This document shows positions 24,828 through 52,883 of a stretch of DNA of 64,000 bases, piece by piece. The notes under the pieces were generated by a model that saw nothing but the letters and a program-made list of their open reading frames with translations, was not told the DNA's origin and ran no database searches. The DNA comes from Tepidisphaeraceae bacterium (lineage in GTDB: Bacteria; Planctomycetota; Phycisphaerae; Tepidisphaerales; Tepidisphaeraceae), in assembly GCA_035998445.1 (NCBI GenBank), contig DASYHQ010000039.1:1-64000 (forward strand), given 5' to 3'. How positions within the stretch are numbered: the stretch's first letter is position 1; the number at the start of each line of letters is the position of its first letter. The position numbers and the translations under genes are program-made.

Positions 24828-26341
<1,514 letters not shown>

Positions 26342-42665: not shown

Positions 42666-43586
42666 CTACGCGTCGCCCCGCTCTTTCCGCAGCCGCTCCG
42701 CCGCCACCGCGATCGTCTGCACGTGCAGTTCCCCGGTCATGCCGGGCGACTTGTTGTATCCCCCGCCGTAGACGACGACGGTCGGAATCGACCAATCGCG
42801 GCACAGGTTGATCGCAAACGCATCGCGCTGCGCCATGTCGGCGGTGCTGAGGCGCATCTGACCGAAGCGGTCGTCAACGTGCACGTCCACACCGGCGTTG
42901 TAGAAGACGAGGTCGGGCTCGAACCGCTCGACGGCCGCCGGCAGCGTGGTGTGTAGGTTGCTGAAGTACTCGTCGGCGGACGCGAAACGCGTCAGGCCCA
43001 CATCGAGGCTGCCGGGCACCTTTTCGCTCGGGTAATTCTTGGCGACGTGGACGCTGTAGGTGAAGGTGAAGGGGTCGCTGGCGAAGATCGCGTTGGTCCC
43101 GTTGCCCTGATGCGCGTCGAGGTCGATCACCATCGCGTGCAGCAACGGCTCATCCTGGCGCAACGCGCGAATGGCAACGGCGACATCGTTGAACACGCAG
43201 AACCCCTCGCCACGATCGGCAAAGGCATGGTGCGTGCCGCCGGCGAGATTGGCGGCGATTCCATCCACCAGCGCCGCCCGCGCCGCCGCCAGCGTGCCGG
43301 CGGTGGCAGCGTGACTGCGATCGCTCAACCGCTGCGACCAAGGCAGTCCCAATCGCCGCTGCGTGACCTCGTTGTACCGCCCACAGCGGATCGACTGCAC
43401 GTACGCCGGCGTGTGCACGCGCAGCAAGTCGGCATCGCCGATGCGCCCGGGGTCGATCACGTTCCCGATCCCCCGCTCGCGCACTGCCGCGGACGATTGC
43501 GCAAACTTCTCCATCGGGAACACGTGCCCCGGTGGCAGTGGCGCCACGTACGCGTCGGAAGAATAGCAGCGAAGCAGCGGCGTCAT
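42666..43586 (-). CDS. histone-deacetylase-superfamily protein
   Basis: A 306-residue arginase-fold deacetylase of the HDAC/AcuC/polyamine-deacetylase superfamily. Key residues are visible: the tandem histidines H119-H120 in GGTHHAF, and zinc ligands D155 and H159 in DLDAHQGNG; FYNAGVDVH follows with its ligand Asp, and GGGYN marks the end of the active site. The acetylated substrate is unknown. ATG 43586 is chosen; earlier codons are not conserved-looking. The M28 peptidase gene lies 37 nt upstream on the same strand, probably in one operon. Confidence 0.88.
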   Translation of the reverse strand: MTPLLRCYSSDAYVAPLPPGHVFPMEKFAQSSAAVRERGIGNVIDPGRIGDADLLRVHTPAYVQSIRCGRYNEVTQRRLGLPWSQRLSDRSHAATAGTLAAARAALVDGIAANLAGGTHHAFADRGEGFCVFNDVAVAIRALRQDEPLLHAMVIDLDAHQGNGTNAIFASDPFTFTYSVHVAKNYPSEKVPGSLDVGLTRFASADEYFSNLHTTLPAAVERFEPDLVFYNAGVDVHVDDRFGQMRLSTADMAQRDAFAINLCRDWSIPTVVVYGGGYNKSPGMTGELHVQTIAVAAERLRKERGDA

Positions 43587-43623
43587 GCGGACGAATGATA
43601 GGCGTGGCCGACGTGCTTCTGCA

Positions 43624-44496
43624 TCACGTGCACAGCCGTGCGATCGTCCGCTGAAGTTGACGGCAGAGGCGGGCCATCTGATCGATGTCCAGCGTGGCAA
43701 GACGATCGGTGGCCTGGTGGTAGTTCGGGTTGCGCAGGTGCGCGGTGTCCGTCACCATTAGCGCCGGAAAGCCCTGCTCCCAGTATCCGCGATGATCGGA
43801 AAGCGCGATGTCCGGAACCCATCGCACCGGAAGCGCCGCCGGCAGGTAGCGGAACCACCCACTGGTGGCGAACCGGGCGAGAAACCGCAGGCCGAACCAA
43901 GCCGACGGCGTGTTCGCGACGATCGCCACGAACCGCCCGCCGAGCAGCCGGTTCGCCAGGCGTAGGATCCAAATCGCGTCGCCACGGCTTTGCGGCTTCG
44001 CTGGGAAGTAGCCGAGCGATTCGAGACAGACCATGCCCATCAGGCGTTCGCCGGACCGCCTAAGCATCGCGGCGTGAAACTGGCTGCCCATCTCGCCGAG
44101 GTTGAAGTGCGGCGGCTCCTCGCAGTCAAAGAAGACGATTCGCACCGTGCGCTTCACCTTCCGCCGTGCCAGATCGCGCGCAATTTCGAGCAAGATCGCC
44201 ACCGCCGACGCGTTGTCGTCGGCGCCGGGCGTACCGTGGGCCGAGTCGTAATGGGCGCCGACGATTAGCGTCCCCTTCGCCGGCCGACTGCCGGGCAGAT
44301 GAACCTCGAGGTTCAGGGCGGTCCGCCGGCTGGTTTCGAACGGTTGATCGACGACGACGTGCCCCATCGCCGTCAGTTCGCGGCGCAGGTAGGCGCGCGT
44401 TGCGTCCAGCGCAATAGGATGGGACGTGTTACGCTCTCCGATTAGTTCCGCTAACATGTCCACATGCCCGCGGAGCTTGGGTAACAAGTCTTCCAT
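43624..44496 (-). CDS. M28-family zinc peptidase
   Basis: A 290-residue aminopeptidase-type protein. Metal-site residues appear in order: H82 and D84 (AHYDS), D93 (GADDNASA), E126/E127 (FDCEEP), a later Asp (SDHRGYW) and His in NPNYHQATD. No signal peptide is evident, so it is probably cytoplasmic. Related proteins include aminopeptidases and glutaminyl cyclases; LSDHRGYW is seen in both. It is the first gene of a probable pair with the HDAC-like gene. Confidence 0.85.
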   Translation of the reverse strand: MEDLLPKLRGHVDMLAELIGERNTSHPIALDATRAYLRRELTAMGHVVVDQPFETSRRTALNLEVHLPGSRPAKGTLIVGAHYDSAHGTPGADDNASAVAILLEIARDLARRKVKRTVRIVFFDCEEPPHFNLGEMGSQFHAAMLRRSGERLMGMVCLESLGYFPAKPQSRGDAIWILRLANRLLGGRFVAIVANTPSAWFGLRFLARFATSGWFRYLPAALPVRWVPDIALSDHRGYWEQGFPALMVTDTAHLRNPNYHQATDRLATLDIDQMARLCRQLQRTIARLCT

Positions 44497-46160: not shown

Positions 46161-47648
<1,488 letters not shown>

Positions 47649-47700
47649 AAGGTCAGGTCTTTCAGTTGACTAAAATCAGCAGCAATGCCGGACGAACTCC

Positions 47701-47716
47701 ATCCGACCATCCGGAT
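47701..47716. promoter_or_regulatory. putative SahR-like operator upstream of ahcY
   Basis: ATCCG-ACCATC-CGGAT, an inverted repeat placed just downstream of the predicted -10 region of ahcY. The same half sites and spacing occur at 49050-49065. Confidence 0.6.
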
Positions 47717-47835
47717 ATATTAGTAGACTATTTCCAGCTAAGGTCAAGCATTTTCAAACAATTTGTGCCGCTGCAGGGGGTGGTTAATTGCTGCCGCCAC
47801 GGATGCAGTTGTTCGAGACGTCCGTCAGGAACCAT

Positions 47836-48033
47836 CTAATCCGTCGGTGCGAAGCCGTTGCGGTTGATCGGGCTGGCCTGGCTGAGCTCGACCTGGCTCA
47901 GGTCAAGCTTGCGCGGGTGCTTCTTAGCGCATTCGATGCACGTCGTAACGCCCGGCAGCGCCTCCAGCCGCGCGGCCGCGATCGGCTGGCCGCACAAGGC
48001 GCAGGCCTTTGACTTGGTTGTCGTACGCTTCAT
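47836..48033 (-). CDS. small DksA/TraR-type zinc-finger protein
   Basis: A 65-residue protein with CALCGQPIAAARLEALPGVTTCIECA, the C4 zinc finger of DksA/TraR. The coiled-coil and its acidic tip, needed for RNA polymerase secondary-channel action, are absent. A GTG at 48084 would add 17 residues and nearly join the upstream ArsR-methyltransferase gene. It lies between that gene and ahcY on the same strand and may be in their operon. Function unknown. Confidence 0.65.
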   Translation of the reverse strand: MKRTTTKSKACALCGQPIAAARLEALPGVTTCIECAKKHPRKLDLSQVELSQASPINRNGFAPTD

Positions 48034-48089
48034 CCCGGTATTACGAGTCAGCCGGCCAAGGGGTTTGCCGCGTTCGGTGATCACCCGGA

Positions 48090-49043
48090 TTAATCTCGTC
48101 GTCCCGTAGCCAGGAACAGCGCCGGCCCCTTTGCCGATTCTTCAGGCGGCAAGGGCGTGATCTTCAGGTGTCGCAGTTGCCCGGCCGCCATCATGGCCTC
48201 GAGGTCCTTTGCGTCGATCCCCAGCGACACCTGCCCCAGTTGCCGGCGGAAGTCGTCGCGGTCGTGGGGAAGCAAATCGACGATGATCAACCGTCCGCCG
48301 GGCCGCAGAATGCGGGCGGCCTCGGTGACGGCGCCGGTGGCGTCAGGGACGTACGTCAACGCGAGGATCAGCAGCGCGGCGTCGATGCTGGCATCGTCCA
48401 CCGGCAGGCTCGTCAGGTCGCCGCGGCGAAGGTCGACGTTCGGCAGGTCGGCGGTGCGCTTCTTGGCGGCCTTCAGCATCGCCGGGGAGTTGTCGACGCC
48501 GATTACCTGCTTCACGTGTGGCGCGAGCATCGCCACCAGTGGCGCGGTGCCACAGCCAAGGTCGGCGACCGTCAACTCTGGCGACAGCATCGCAAGCATG
48601 GCGGCGGTGGTGAAGCTCTCGCCGTACAGTTCGCCGCGCAATTTGTCCCACTGCGACGCGGCGCCGGCGAAGAAGGCCTGGGCATCCCCCTGCCGTTGGC
48701 TCAAGCGCCGGGCGAGGCGCAGTTCGTCCTGTTTGATCGTCGCCCAGTCTTCCGTCTGTTCGCGCGCCAGCAGCCACAGTTTGCGGGCCGCCGGTTCAAG
48801 TTCGTCGACGATCGTGCGGTACAGGTGCGTGGTCCCCTGCCGCCGGCTGCGCGTCCACTGCCCGTCGGTCAGCACCTTTAAGTGCCGGCTGACGGTGCTC
48901 TGCGGCATCTGCAGCACGTCGCAGATCTCGGCGACGCCCAACTCGTGGCGTTCCAACAATCGCAATAGACGCAGACGCGTATCGTCGGCGAGGCACTCCA
49001 GCTGTAGCAGGAACTGGTCGGGTTGGGCGGAGGGCTTAATCAT
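48090..49043 (-). CDS. ArsR-family regulator fused to a methyltransferase domain (SahR-like)
   Basis: A 317-residue protein. Residues 10-95 form an ArsR winged helix (LADDTRLRLLRLLERHELGVAEICDVLQMPQSTVSRHLKVL); residues ~150-260 form a class I SAM-dependent methyltransferase fold (VADLGCGTAPLVAML, VDNSPAML, ALLILALTYVPD). No ArsR metal-binding ELCVC motif is present, so SAM/SAH rather than a metal is the likely ligand. Such fusions are known as SahR-type regulators of the methionine cycle. Location beside ahcY and shared palindromes support that role. A palindrome three nt before the ATG suggests autoregulation. Confidence 0.85.
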   Translation of the reverse strand: MIKPSAQPDQFLLQLECLADDTRLRLLRLLERHELGVAEICDVLQMPQSTVSRHLKVLTDGQWTRSRRQGTTHLYRTIVDELEPAARKLWLLAREQTEDWATIKQDELRLARRLSQRQGDAQAFFAGAASQWDKLRGELYGESFTTAAMLAMLSPELTVADLGCGTAPLVAMLAPHVKQVIGVDNSPAMLKAAKKRTADLPNVDLRRGDLTSLPVDDASIDAALLILALTYVPDATGAVTEAARILRPGGRLIIVDLLPHDRDDFRRQLGQVSLGIDAKDLEAMMAAGQLRHLKITPLPPEESAKGPALFLATGRRD

Positions 49044-49046
49044 CGC

Positions 49047-49068
49047 TTCATCCGAGTTTTCGGATGAA
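49047..49068. promoter_or_regulatory. putative SahR-like operator, autoregulatory
   Basis: TTCATCCGA-4 nt-TCGGATGAA, a perfect 9-bp inverted repeat containing ATCCG-N6-CGGAT. It lies 3 nt upstream of the regulator's start codon, where binding would block transcription or translation initiation. Confidence 0.65.
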
Positions 49069-49714: not shown

Positions 49715-52651
49715 TCACCTATACAAGTTCAACTCCGAAACGCTCCACCAGTAGCCCGCGCTGGACGTGCAGACGATGCGCACGTAGCGGGCGGTGACGT
49801 TCGAGGCGAGGTTGATGTCGACCACGGCCCCGGTGCCCTTTCCGGTGGCGACCGCGGTTTGGGTGGACCAGTCGGTACCGTTGTTCGACACGTATACGGC
49901 GTAGCCGCGCAGGTAGTCGTTCGTCGAACTGCCGGAATCGAGCTTGATTCGCCGGAACGATTGCGCGCCGCCCATGTCGATCTGGAACCACCCGTTGAGC
50001 GGGTTCCGGCCGGTGCTCCAGCGGGTGCTTTGGCCATCGATCGCGCGGGCGGCGCCCTCGTTCGAGGCGTTCGAACTGGCGGTGGCCGTCCAACCGGTGC
50101 GGCTGAGCAGCGTGGTGGTCGGTGAAGCAGGCGAGGACGTCACGTAGCTGGTGGCTCCGATCGACACGTTCGTGAACGTGCCCGTCGCCAGCGCCGCGGT
50201 GTTTCGGCTGGTGACGGCAAGGCCGGCGCGATAGGTGGCGTTGGTGAACGTGACGTTCACCGGCGTCCCCACCTGAATCCACTGGCTGCTCGTCGGGGTG
50301 CCGCTCACGGTGGCATAGTAGCCGGTGTAGGTGGTGCCGCTGCGCACCAGCTTCACCCAGGTGGGCGCGGCGACGCCGGCGACACTGACACCGTTGGTCC
50401 ACTGGCCGGTCGCCAGGCGATGCTGGAAGCGCACGCCACTGCCGGGCATTACCACCACCGCCGCGTTGGCCGAGCCGACATGGGTCGAATCGCGGAACAT
50501 CACGCCGGCCTTGGCCGACGAATGGGTGTTGGTCAGCGAGGTGACGCGAGCAACGATCGATTGGTCGCCACTGACACCGGTGGAGGCGAAGTGGAACGCG
50601 TCGGTGCCACCGCCGATGTCGGCCCCGGCGCCGTTCACGGTGAACGTGCCACTGGTGTAGGTGCTGGAGCCGGCGACACCGACCGCACCGATGCTGGCGT
50701 TCGTCCACCCGGCCGGCAGCGCCGTGGAGGGTGGCGCGCTGGCAACGCCGGGTACGGTCGAGAGGTTGATCTCGGTGATCGACCACCAATCGCTGTAGTT
50801 GGCGGCCGGCATCAGGCGCAGGTAGCGGGTGTTGACGGGACTGTTGAGCGTGATCGTCACGTTGCGCCCACTGATCGCGGTCGTGCTGCCCGCGCTGGTC
50901 CAGGTGGTGCCGTCGCTGGAGATGTAGGCGACGTAGCCGCCGATCTGCTTGTCGCTGGCGGCGTCGTGGAGGATGTGGGCACGCTGGAATGCCATGGAGC
51001 TGCCCAGGTCCATGTTGAACCACATCGCCGACGTCGCCGACTGGCCGGTGAGCCAGGCGCTGGTGAAGTTACCGTCGATCGCGCGGGACGTGGTCGAGTA
51101 CGCCGTGTGGCTGGCGGTTGCGGTCCACCCGGTGCGGTCGAGGATCGCCGGCGTCGCGCTCACGTTGTCGAACGTCGCCGTTGCCAGCGACGTGTTCACG
51201 TGCGACGTGACGGCCAGGCCCGCCTGGATCTGCGTGGGCATTGCGATCGTCTGCCCGGCGGCCACCGGTGACCAGGTGGTGCCATTGGTGCTGTAGAAGC
51301 CGCTGAAGACGTTGCCGTTGCGCGTCAGGCGCAGATAGGTAGCGCCACTGGGGATCGCCAGCGTCGACTGCTGCACCGCCGCCCCGGCGGTCGTGCGATA
51401 CTGGAAGGCGACCTGATTGTTGGGCATTTCCACCAGGCTGGCGAAGGGCGCATTGGCGGCCCAGCTTTGCCGCATCATGACGCCGGCCTTGGCGGATGAA
51501 TCACCACCGGTGAGGCCCGTCAGGCGCGCGGTCATCGTGCCGTCACCGATGAGGATCTTCGACGCGTAGCGGAACTTGTCGCTCGTGCCGCCGATATCGG
51601 TGCCGCTGCCGGCGATCGTGTATACGCCCGAGCTGTACGACCCGCTGCCCGCGGCGCCGGGCGAACCGATGTCGGTCTGGTTGAAGCCGTCGTTCAGGTT
51701 GTGGATCGAGACCGGCATCGTGTTCGGGTTCACCGAATACCCCGAGCCGGGCGCGACGACCGGCTTGGCGGGGTCGCTCGAGTAGACGCGGACGTAGTCG
51801 ACGTCGTACGTGTTGTTGAAGTTCGTGTTTGCGTTGACGACGTTGTTGTTCCACCCGCCGATCGCCAGGTTCACGAGCATGTACATCGGCTCGTTGGAGT
51901 GGTTGACGCCCGTCTTGGTCTTCACGCCGTCGACGTACCAGCTGATGGTGCTGGCGTTCCACTCGAACCCGTAGGTGTGGTAGTCGGTGGTGGTGTCGAT
52001 GATCGTCTCGTAGACGAACTCGTCCTTGGCGCTGTAGTTGTTCCAGTGCTGGGTCTGATAGGCGGCATCGGGATTGTTGCCGAGGCCTTCCAGGATGTCG
52101 TACTCAGCGTTGTTGTTGCCCAGCGGCATCAGCCAGAACGCGGGGAAGAAGCCCGAGCCCAGCGGAAGCTTGGCGCGCATCTCGAAGTAGCCGTACTTCT
52201 GACTGAAGCCGACGCCACCGGGGTTGGTGCCGTACTGGTTGCGCTTGGCCGTGGTGATCTCGCCGGAAACCCACGACCGGCCGTCGGCATCGAAGCCGGC
52301 GGGCGTGGGCTGAGCCTTGATGCTCAGCGAACCGTTGGCGATCGAGAACGGGTTGTACGACTCGGTGAGCGGGTTGGAATAGTACTGCTTGTCGATGCCG
52401 ACGTAGTGGTTATTCCAATAATCCAGCGCCGACCATGGCCGGGTGTCGGTCGCGCTCTGCGCAAGCTCGAGCGGCGAGCTGAATTCCTCGCTGAAGGTGA
52501 GGTGATATGCGGTAAGCAGCGTCCGCGCCTCCATCGATTCAACGACTGCCCGTTGGACCGCGGGGTGGCGGCGCTTGGGAGCCTTGGGGCTCTTGGGATT
52601 GTCGAAACGATCAGACAGAACGCGGGCGAGGGAACCGAGCGACCGATACAT
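49715..52651 (-). CDS. large secreted GH16 glycoside hydrolase with F5/8C domains
   Basis: A 978-residue multidomain protein. The N-terminus carries VVESMEARTLLTA (about 36-48), an LEPR-XLL-like motif typical of planctomycete extracellular proteins. The GH16 domain (about 50-280) has the catalytic E183-x-D185-x-x-E188 (EYDILE), so it should cleave beta-1,3/1,4-glucans, agar-like or related polymers. Then two units each of a beta-sandwich (about 300-480 and 650-810) and an F5/8 type C carbohydrate-binding domain (about 490-625 and 840-978) alternate. ATG 52651 is chosen because 27 further upstream codons precede a conserved-looking start. It is probably exported despite a weak signal peptide. 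Confidence 0.87.
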   Translation of the reverse strand: MYRSLGSLARVLSDRFDNPKSPKAPKRRHPAVQRAVVESMEARTLLTAYHLTFSEEFSSPLELAQSATDTRPWSALDYWNNHYVGIDKQYYSNPLTESYNPFSIANGSLSIKAQPTPAGFDADGRSWVSGEITTAKRNQYGTNPGGVGFSQKYGYFEMRAKLPLGSGFFPAFWLMPLGNNNAEYDILEGLGNNPDAAYQTQHWNNYSAKDEFVYETIIDTTTDYHTYGFEWNASTISWYVDGVKTKTGVNHSNEPMYMLVNLAIGGWNNNVVNANTNFNNTYDVDYVRVYSSDPAKPVVAPGSGYSVNPNTMPVSIHNLNDGFNQTDIGSPGAAGSGSYSSGVYTIAGSGTDIGGTSDKFRYASKILIGDGTMTARLTGLTGGDSSAKAGVMMRQSWAANAPFASLVEMPNNQVAFQYRTTAGAAVQQSTLAIPSGATYLRLTRNGNVFSGFYSTNGTTWSPVAAGQTIAMPTQIQAGLAVTSHVNTSLATATFDNVSATPAILDRTGWTATASHTAYSTTSRAIDGNFTSAWLTGQSATSAMWFNMDLGSSMAFQRAHILHDAASDKQIGGYVAYISSDGTTWTSAGSTTAISGRNVTITLNSPVNTRYLRLMPAANYSDWWSITEINLSTVPGVASAPPSTALPAGWTNASIGAVGVAGSSTYTSGTFTVNGAGADIGGGTDAFHFASTGVSGDQSIVARVTSLTNTHSSAKAGVMFRDSTHVGSANAAVVVMPGSGVRFQHRLATGQWTNGVSVAGVAAPTWVKLVRSGTTYTGYYATVSGTPTSSQWIQVGTPVNVTFTNATYRAGLAVTSRNTAALATGTFTNVSIGATSYVTSSPASPTTTLLSRTGWTATASSNASNEGAARAIDGQSTRWSTGRNPLNGWFQIDMGGAQSFRRIKLDSGSSTNDYLRGYAVYVSNNGTDWSTQTAVATGKGTGAVVDINLASNVTARYVRIVCTSSAGYWWSVSELNLYR

Positions 52652-52883
52652 AGCGATCCTCCGTGCGCGAGATGAAGCGAATGAAATGATGGGAGACGAT
52701 CGAGGGGACCAACGTGCGGCATCGCACGTCACGCCGTCATGATTTTCAATCGTTGGCGTCGTTACAACCTACATCACGTTCGTTGCGAGATCGCGAAAAA
52801 CATCTGTCGCTTTGCGTCAACGTTGATGGCGCGTTGCGCGCGCGTTCACGTTCTTGCGGTTGGGGGTTAAACTTCGTCCCGCC

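Follow-up and report, generated by a model that had tools for sequence, protein, structure and literature searches.

A predicted SahR-type regulon of the methyl cycle with a changed operator in Tepidisphaeraceae and other bacterial groups

Gene content of the regulator-ahcY locus

The DNA analysed here, referred to as the window, is a stretch of 64,000 nt (contig DASYHQ010000039.1, forward strand, positions 1 to 64,000) from Tepidisphaeraceae bacterium GCA_035998445.1, whose genome comprises 5.84 Mb in 64 contigs and is 95.5% complete. The minus strand carries a gene for an ArsR-methyltransferase fusion regulator of the SahR type (48090..49043, 317 aa), assigned from its HTH_5 and Methyltransf_11 domains, an AlphaFold model and orthologs in the family. 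It is followed on the same strand by ahcY (46161..47648, 495 aa), whose product is an adenosylhomocysteinase, or S-adenosylhomocysteine hydrolase, matching TIGR00936 over the cut-off with 625 bits. Two candidate operators accompany these genes, both on the minus strand: O1, TTCATCCGAAAACTCGGATGAA (49047..49068), lies before the regulator, and O2, TATATCCGGATGGTCGGATGGA (47698..47719), lies at the ahcY promoter. The predicted promoter of ahcY (47719..47747, minus strand) consists of TTGACC (47747-47742), a spacer of 17 bp and ACTAAT (47724-47719), and it abuts O2.

The interval between the regulator and ahcY also contains a small DksA/TraR-type zinc-finger gene (47836..48033, minus strand, 65 aa; Pfam PF01258, 46.1 bits), which has no counterpart at the loci retrieved from other genomes. 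This gene parts the regulator from ahcY in its own genome, and there is no evidence that it participates in the circuit. On its promoter side, the regulator is adjoined by a gene for a large protein (49715-52732) in which a GH16 domain is combined with two F5/8 type C domains, and a histone-deacetylase-family protein is encoded at 42666-43700. The sole Rfam match in the window is a complete 16S rRNA gene (24834-26341); no 23S rRNA match is present anywhere in it, so that the rRNA genes are apparently unlinked.

Regulator protein and its sensor domain

A preliminary description of the locus had proposed that the regulator combines an ArsR helix-turn-helix with a SAM-binding fold, and both are found in one protein: NF033788 is matched over its cut-off, and Pfam places HTH_5 at residues 20-59 and Methyltransf_11 at residues 161-254. 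In the relatives whose annotation was looked at, the protein is named only as a "metalloregulator". The AlphaFold model has a mean pLDDT of 90.6, and its C-terminal half is folded as a class I methyltransferase, resembling enzymes whose structures were solved with SAH. One such fold match is 5gm1 (Z 21.4, rmsd 2.9, 176 residues of the C-terminal half), a comparison that bears on the methyltransferase half and barely tests the HTH part. Sequence and fold searches of the PDB list separate ArsR and methyltransferase structures, and no solved full-length fusion. Such a fold does not discriminate between SAH and SAM.

The SAM motif DLGCGT is mostly kept. Within 29 members from the family and class, no cysteine is invariant; the best conserved one occurs in 25/29 and lies inside the SAM motif, while the helix cysteine C41 is present in 17/29. 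Two histidines are conserved in this set, one in the recognition helix and one in the methyltransferase domain, and the Cys/His ligand pattern of metal-sensing ArsR/SmtB proteins is not conserved. Against the arsenite methyltransferase model NF008823, the regulator scores 63.9 bits, compared with a cut-off of 263.

Operator sites and the predicted regulon of the source genome

The inverted repeat ATCCG-N6-CGGAT occurs exactly at 47701-47716 and at 49050-49065, with no third copy in the window, where dinucleotide shuffles give an expectation of 0.11 copies and 0 of 100 shuffles reached two. The surroundings of both sites agree with the preliminary description, which had placed one next to the ahcY -10 and extended the other to 9-bp arms: the ahcY-side site lies 2 nt downstream of the -10-like ACTAAT on the ahcY strand, with TTGACC 17 bp further upstream, and the regulator-side site reads TTCATCCGA-GTTT-TCGGATGAA (49047-49068), 3 nt before the regulator ATG (49043, minus strand).

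Genome-wide sites were located by pattern searches, exact and with 1-3 mismatches. The source genome contains 16 exact copies of ATCCG-N6-CGGAT, and about 10 are expected by extrapolating the window rate; because these numbers are not far apart, the bare pattern is weak evidence alone, and it is the extended matrix together with the gene context that makes a strong case. This matrix was built from 61 sites before regulators in other families of the class and in other phyla, and the own family was left out because an in-family matrix would be circular. With it, the sites before metH, metF, ahcY and the regulator score 35.9, 33.2, 27.0 and 23.5 bits, respectively; only these four exceed 20 bits, whereas each of the remaining twelve exact copies reaches at most 14.4 bits. 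Site centres lie 63 bp from the start of metF and 37 bp from that of metH. Nearly all other exact copies lie within reading frames or have no convincing start nearby, and the sites with 1-3 mismatches are mostly within genes or distant from methyl-cycle genes. Thus, among the methionine-cycle genes that the preliminary description had singled out for a search, metF and metH carry upstream sites, while metK carries none.

Within the window, O2 and O1 rank first and second by the external matrix, and the next best unrelated place, outside overlaps of the two sites, scores no more than 4.8 bits; the maximum in shuffled windows is 16.2 bits (best of 30 mononucleotide shuffles). Control pieces of 380 nt, equal in length to the tested upstream regions and with orientation taken into account, contain a site of at least 20 bits in 0 of 134 cases. 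The upstream DNA of the methyl-cycle genes, about 1.6 kb in total, holds four of the 16 exact sites (binomial probability about 1e-11 under a flat model). The motif is therefore not equally common at random positions, given scores of 23.5-35.9 against at most 14.4 bits and the empty controls.

The position of the operators relative to predicted promoters is also recurrent. Up to 43/73 relatives have a TTGACA-like box that starts 27-29 nt before the operator (17, 15 and 11 relatives at the three offsets, compared with at most 3 at any offset in shuffles), which would set the -10 against the operator edge and the start point inside the operator. The ahcY and metH promoters of the source genome (the latter TTGAGA-17-TATCAT) match this plan; the regulator promoter is less canonical than that of ahcY, with TTGACT nearer to the operator. 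As far as sequence can indicate, this layout is that of a repressor blocking polymerase, and from it we infer repression.

Conservation in the family and class

Regulator orthologs with 47-68% identity are present in most of the sampled relatives of the same family, and in nearly all of these a palindrome lies at or just before the regulator start. The operator consensus at the regulator is TTCATCCGGATAAACGGATGAA, usually at or just before the start codon, and in many family relatives the ATG forms part of the right half-site. The autoregulation put forward in the preliminary description is supported by the relatives with an adjacent ahcY, most of which carry the operator where their regulator gene starts. 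Among family genomes with the respective gene, sites of at least 20 bits precede metF in 8/15, metH in 9/15 and metK in 2/15, counts that include genomes whose assembly gave no regulator match. Three of these sites sit in two such genomes (G002 and G003), whose assemblies are 79-83% complete, and several family genomes with the regulator have no site directly before metF or metH. In class relatives, the upstream regions with a site number 0/16 where the regulator is absent and 18/43 where it is present (Fisher p 0.001, with related genomes treated as separate in these and the other counts from relatives); site presence goes with regulator presence. A literature search, with most subscription journals outside its reach, found no paper on such control in planctomycetes, in keeping with the earlier view that a methyl-cycle circuit of this kind is undescribed there.

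In most fetched relatives the regulator is followed by ahcY on the same strand, and tightly linked pairs almost all have a single operator, before the regulator. An operator lies within the regulator-ahcY gap in 5 of the 64 pairs with a measured gap: the source genome (445 nt) and loci L025 (814 nt), L200 (1213 nt), L207 (927 nt) and L187 (180 nt). In L200, L207 and L187 the regulator is without a good site, and the operator stands before ahcY instead. The operator thus appears to follow ahcY where ahcY has split off or where the regulator is without its own site, and this pattern suggests that an operator ahead of ahcY is kept by selection. The coupling is a tendency only, because the wide gaps of L021 and L165 have no second site.

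Comparison with SahR and related systems

SahR of Proteobacteria was reportedly described by Novichkov and colleagues in 2014, as relayed by the papers that cite this work. The circuit described here resembles SahR in most of the defining features compared: an ArsR HTH is fused to a C-terminal SAM/SAH-binding methyltransferase fold, operators precede the regulator, ahcY, metF and metH in the source genome, and autoregulation is predicted. The core SahR regulon comprises sahR, ahcY, metH, metF and metK, and its operator is a 20-bp palindrome with an ATC-10 nt-GAT consensus common to SahR and SamR (Leyn et al. 2014, PMC4239095), a frame that ATCCG-N6-CGGAT fits exactly. One difference concerns metK, which is core in more than 70% of proteobacterial SahR cases, though not universal, and is without a site in the source genome. 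Another is the half-site, which is TTCATCCG here and ATATCAA/TTGATAT in gammaproteobacterial and Leptospira relatives. Since the published SahR motif itself varies by class, the changed half-site would mark a variant rather than exclusion from SahR. The recognition-helix region also differs, reading PQST(V/I)SRHLK here and QSQPRISRHLK, QSGMSHHLK or QSRVSRHLK in the other proteins, and we infer that the altered helix is what shifted the half-site.

Identity to the relatives from Methylobacterium, Sphingomonas, Desulfobacter and Leptospira is about 32-35%, and 27% to that of a cellvibrionad. Full-length profile matches are obtained for Methylobacterium (5e-65) and Saccharospirillum (6e-53), which the tree, made without an outgroup, separates from the proteins studied here, as well as for a cellvibrionad and a Desulfobacter. 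The regulators of gammaproteobacteria and Leptospira are preceded by ATATCAA-N6-TTGATAT and those of alphaproteobacteria by ACATAAA-like arms, and a few deep members have mixed sites, e.g., ATATCCGAATATTCGGATA (L214). The regulator adjoins metF in S. meliloti (L337) and in Sphingomonas (L340), where metH is nearby. In Leptospira interrogans (L338, on a replicon listed as a plasmid), a perfect ATATCAAGATATCTTGATAT stands at the start of the regulator gene, which is followed directly by ahcY, a ferredoxin gene and metH; by its sequence, this is a putative SahR-type operon in a spirochaete.

SamR of Xanthomonadales is, as here, a SahR-like protein with a palindromic ATC-N10-GAT operator, but it controls metB, metE, metX2, metK and others and is without SAM-cycle targets of the ahcY type, whereas ahcY is central to the present circuit (PMC4239095). 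ArsR^M of Brevundimonas sp. M20, likewise a fusion of ArsR and methyltransferase domains, is encoded in an operon with metF and metH, binds the palindrome CTTTATATAAAG upstream of its gene and is reported as an arsenite methyltransferase (PMC10190100); no arsenic-binding cysteine pattern is conserved in the proteins studied here. Because of its met operon, ArsR^M may belong to the same family as alphaproteobacterial SahR, seen from the other side. The SAH riboswitch is a further SAH-responsive control of ahcY and metF but is an RNA element, and Rfam identifies no riboswitch in the window.

Proposed mechanism and alternative explanations

The observed domains, operator conservation, gene set and promoter geometry make it very probable that the regulator is a SahR-type dimeric ArsR autorepressor of its own gene, ahcY, metF and metH that is released by SAH. 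The HTH of the dimeric regulator would bind the 22-bp inverted repeat TTCATCCG-N6-CGGATGAA, and the C-terminal methyltransferase fold would act as the SAH sensor. At low SAH, the regulator would occupy the operators touching the -10 and start point of ahcY and metH and block transcription, and it would also occupy the site at its own promoter, repressing its own gene via the same kind of site, and the one before metF. When SAH accumulates, the regulator would let go, and expression of ahcY, metF and metH would rise; AhcY would then remove SAH, while the products of metF and metH would return homocysteine to methionine. The methyltransferase fold, the linkage to ahcY and the SahR literature point to SAH as the probable effector, and SAH is favoured over SAM because ahcY is the constant target.

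An unlikely alternative retains the same operators and regulon with SAM as a co-repressor, as proposed for SamR; the fold binds either ligand, and Leyn et al. do not commit to an effector for SamR (PMC4239095). The gene set argues against this, as the most constant target is ahcY, which removes SAH, and metK is only rarely a target (2/15), while these authors argued for SAM from the reverse pattern, metK without other SAM-cycle genes (PMC4239095). Considerably less probable still is an arsenic-responsive regulator-methyltransferase of the ArsR^M/ArsM type standing beside ahcY by chance. The homologous fusion from Brevundimonas, encoded in a regulator-metF-metH operon, did bind its own promoter and is reported to methylate arsenite (PMC10190100), but the 29 members examined share no invariant cysteine, the NF008823 score is far below the cut-off, and the operators are located at methyl-cycle genes.

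The inverted repeats are able to fold into hairpins, and several are located at the predicted start point or downstream of it, so a hairpin or small riboswitch in the 5' leader RNA was considered in place of a DNA operator. It is judged marginally less probable than the arsenic reading, since the motif is asymmetric and, upstream of metF and metH, points either way with respect to the gene, the outer arms are unpaired in many conserved sites, the window has no Rfam riboswitch, and the sites accompany the regulator across genomes. Least credible of all are chance palindromes in a G+C-rich genome: the number of exact copies is near the bare-pattern expectation, yet four of them cluster in the methyl-cycle upstream DNA, these alone pass the external matrix, and the sites are conserved across phyla, which refutes a chance origin of the four methyl-cycle sites. 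A SahR-type regulon with a changed operator, wider than in the papers found, is thus well supported as a prediction from sequence.

Distribution beyond planctomycetes

The same protein with an ahcY neighbour and an operator is found in Anaeromyxobacter oryzae (complete genome) and other Myxococcota, in Gemmatimonadota including Roseisolibacter, and in Acidobacteriota MAGs, and protein-based control of the methyl cycle probably extends well beyond Proteobacteria. Several Phycisphaerae families (f19, f20 and others) contain a sister group whose regulator genes have no operator of their own; in its loci (L168, L179, L188, L194, L223 and others) the ahcY neighbour is often absent. On the tree, a quick reconstruction that is weak at many forks and lacks a true outgroup, operator types cluster, with 11 changes compared with 36 in shuffles, and the direction of change is not given.

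We lean slightly towards the view that the SahR family has a second operator dialect, TTCATCCG-N6-CGGATGAA, which acts as the main switch of the methyl cycle in Planctomycetota, Acidobacteriota, Gemmatimonadota and Myxococcota and owes its difference from the ATATCAA type to an altered recognition helix. Intermediates such as ATATCCG-N6-CGGATA would persist, and the typical internal third half-site GGAT could allow a second binding register. The predicted regulon gives planctomycetes a concrete, testable transcriptional regulon, and the natural series of paired operators and recognition helices makes operator recognition by ArsR proteins directly testable. The operator consensus could help to name the regulator in many genomes. 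In four loci from one family of the class (L041-L044), a different AhcY type, with 38-40% identity to that of the window, follows the same regulator and operator, as though one enzyme had replaced another under unchanged control.
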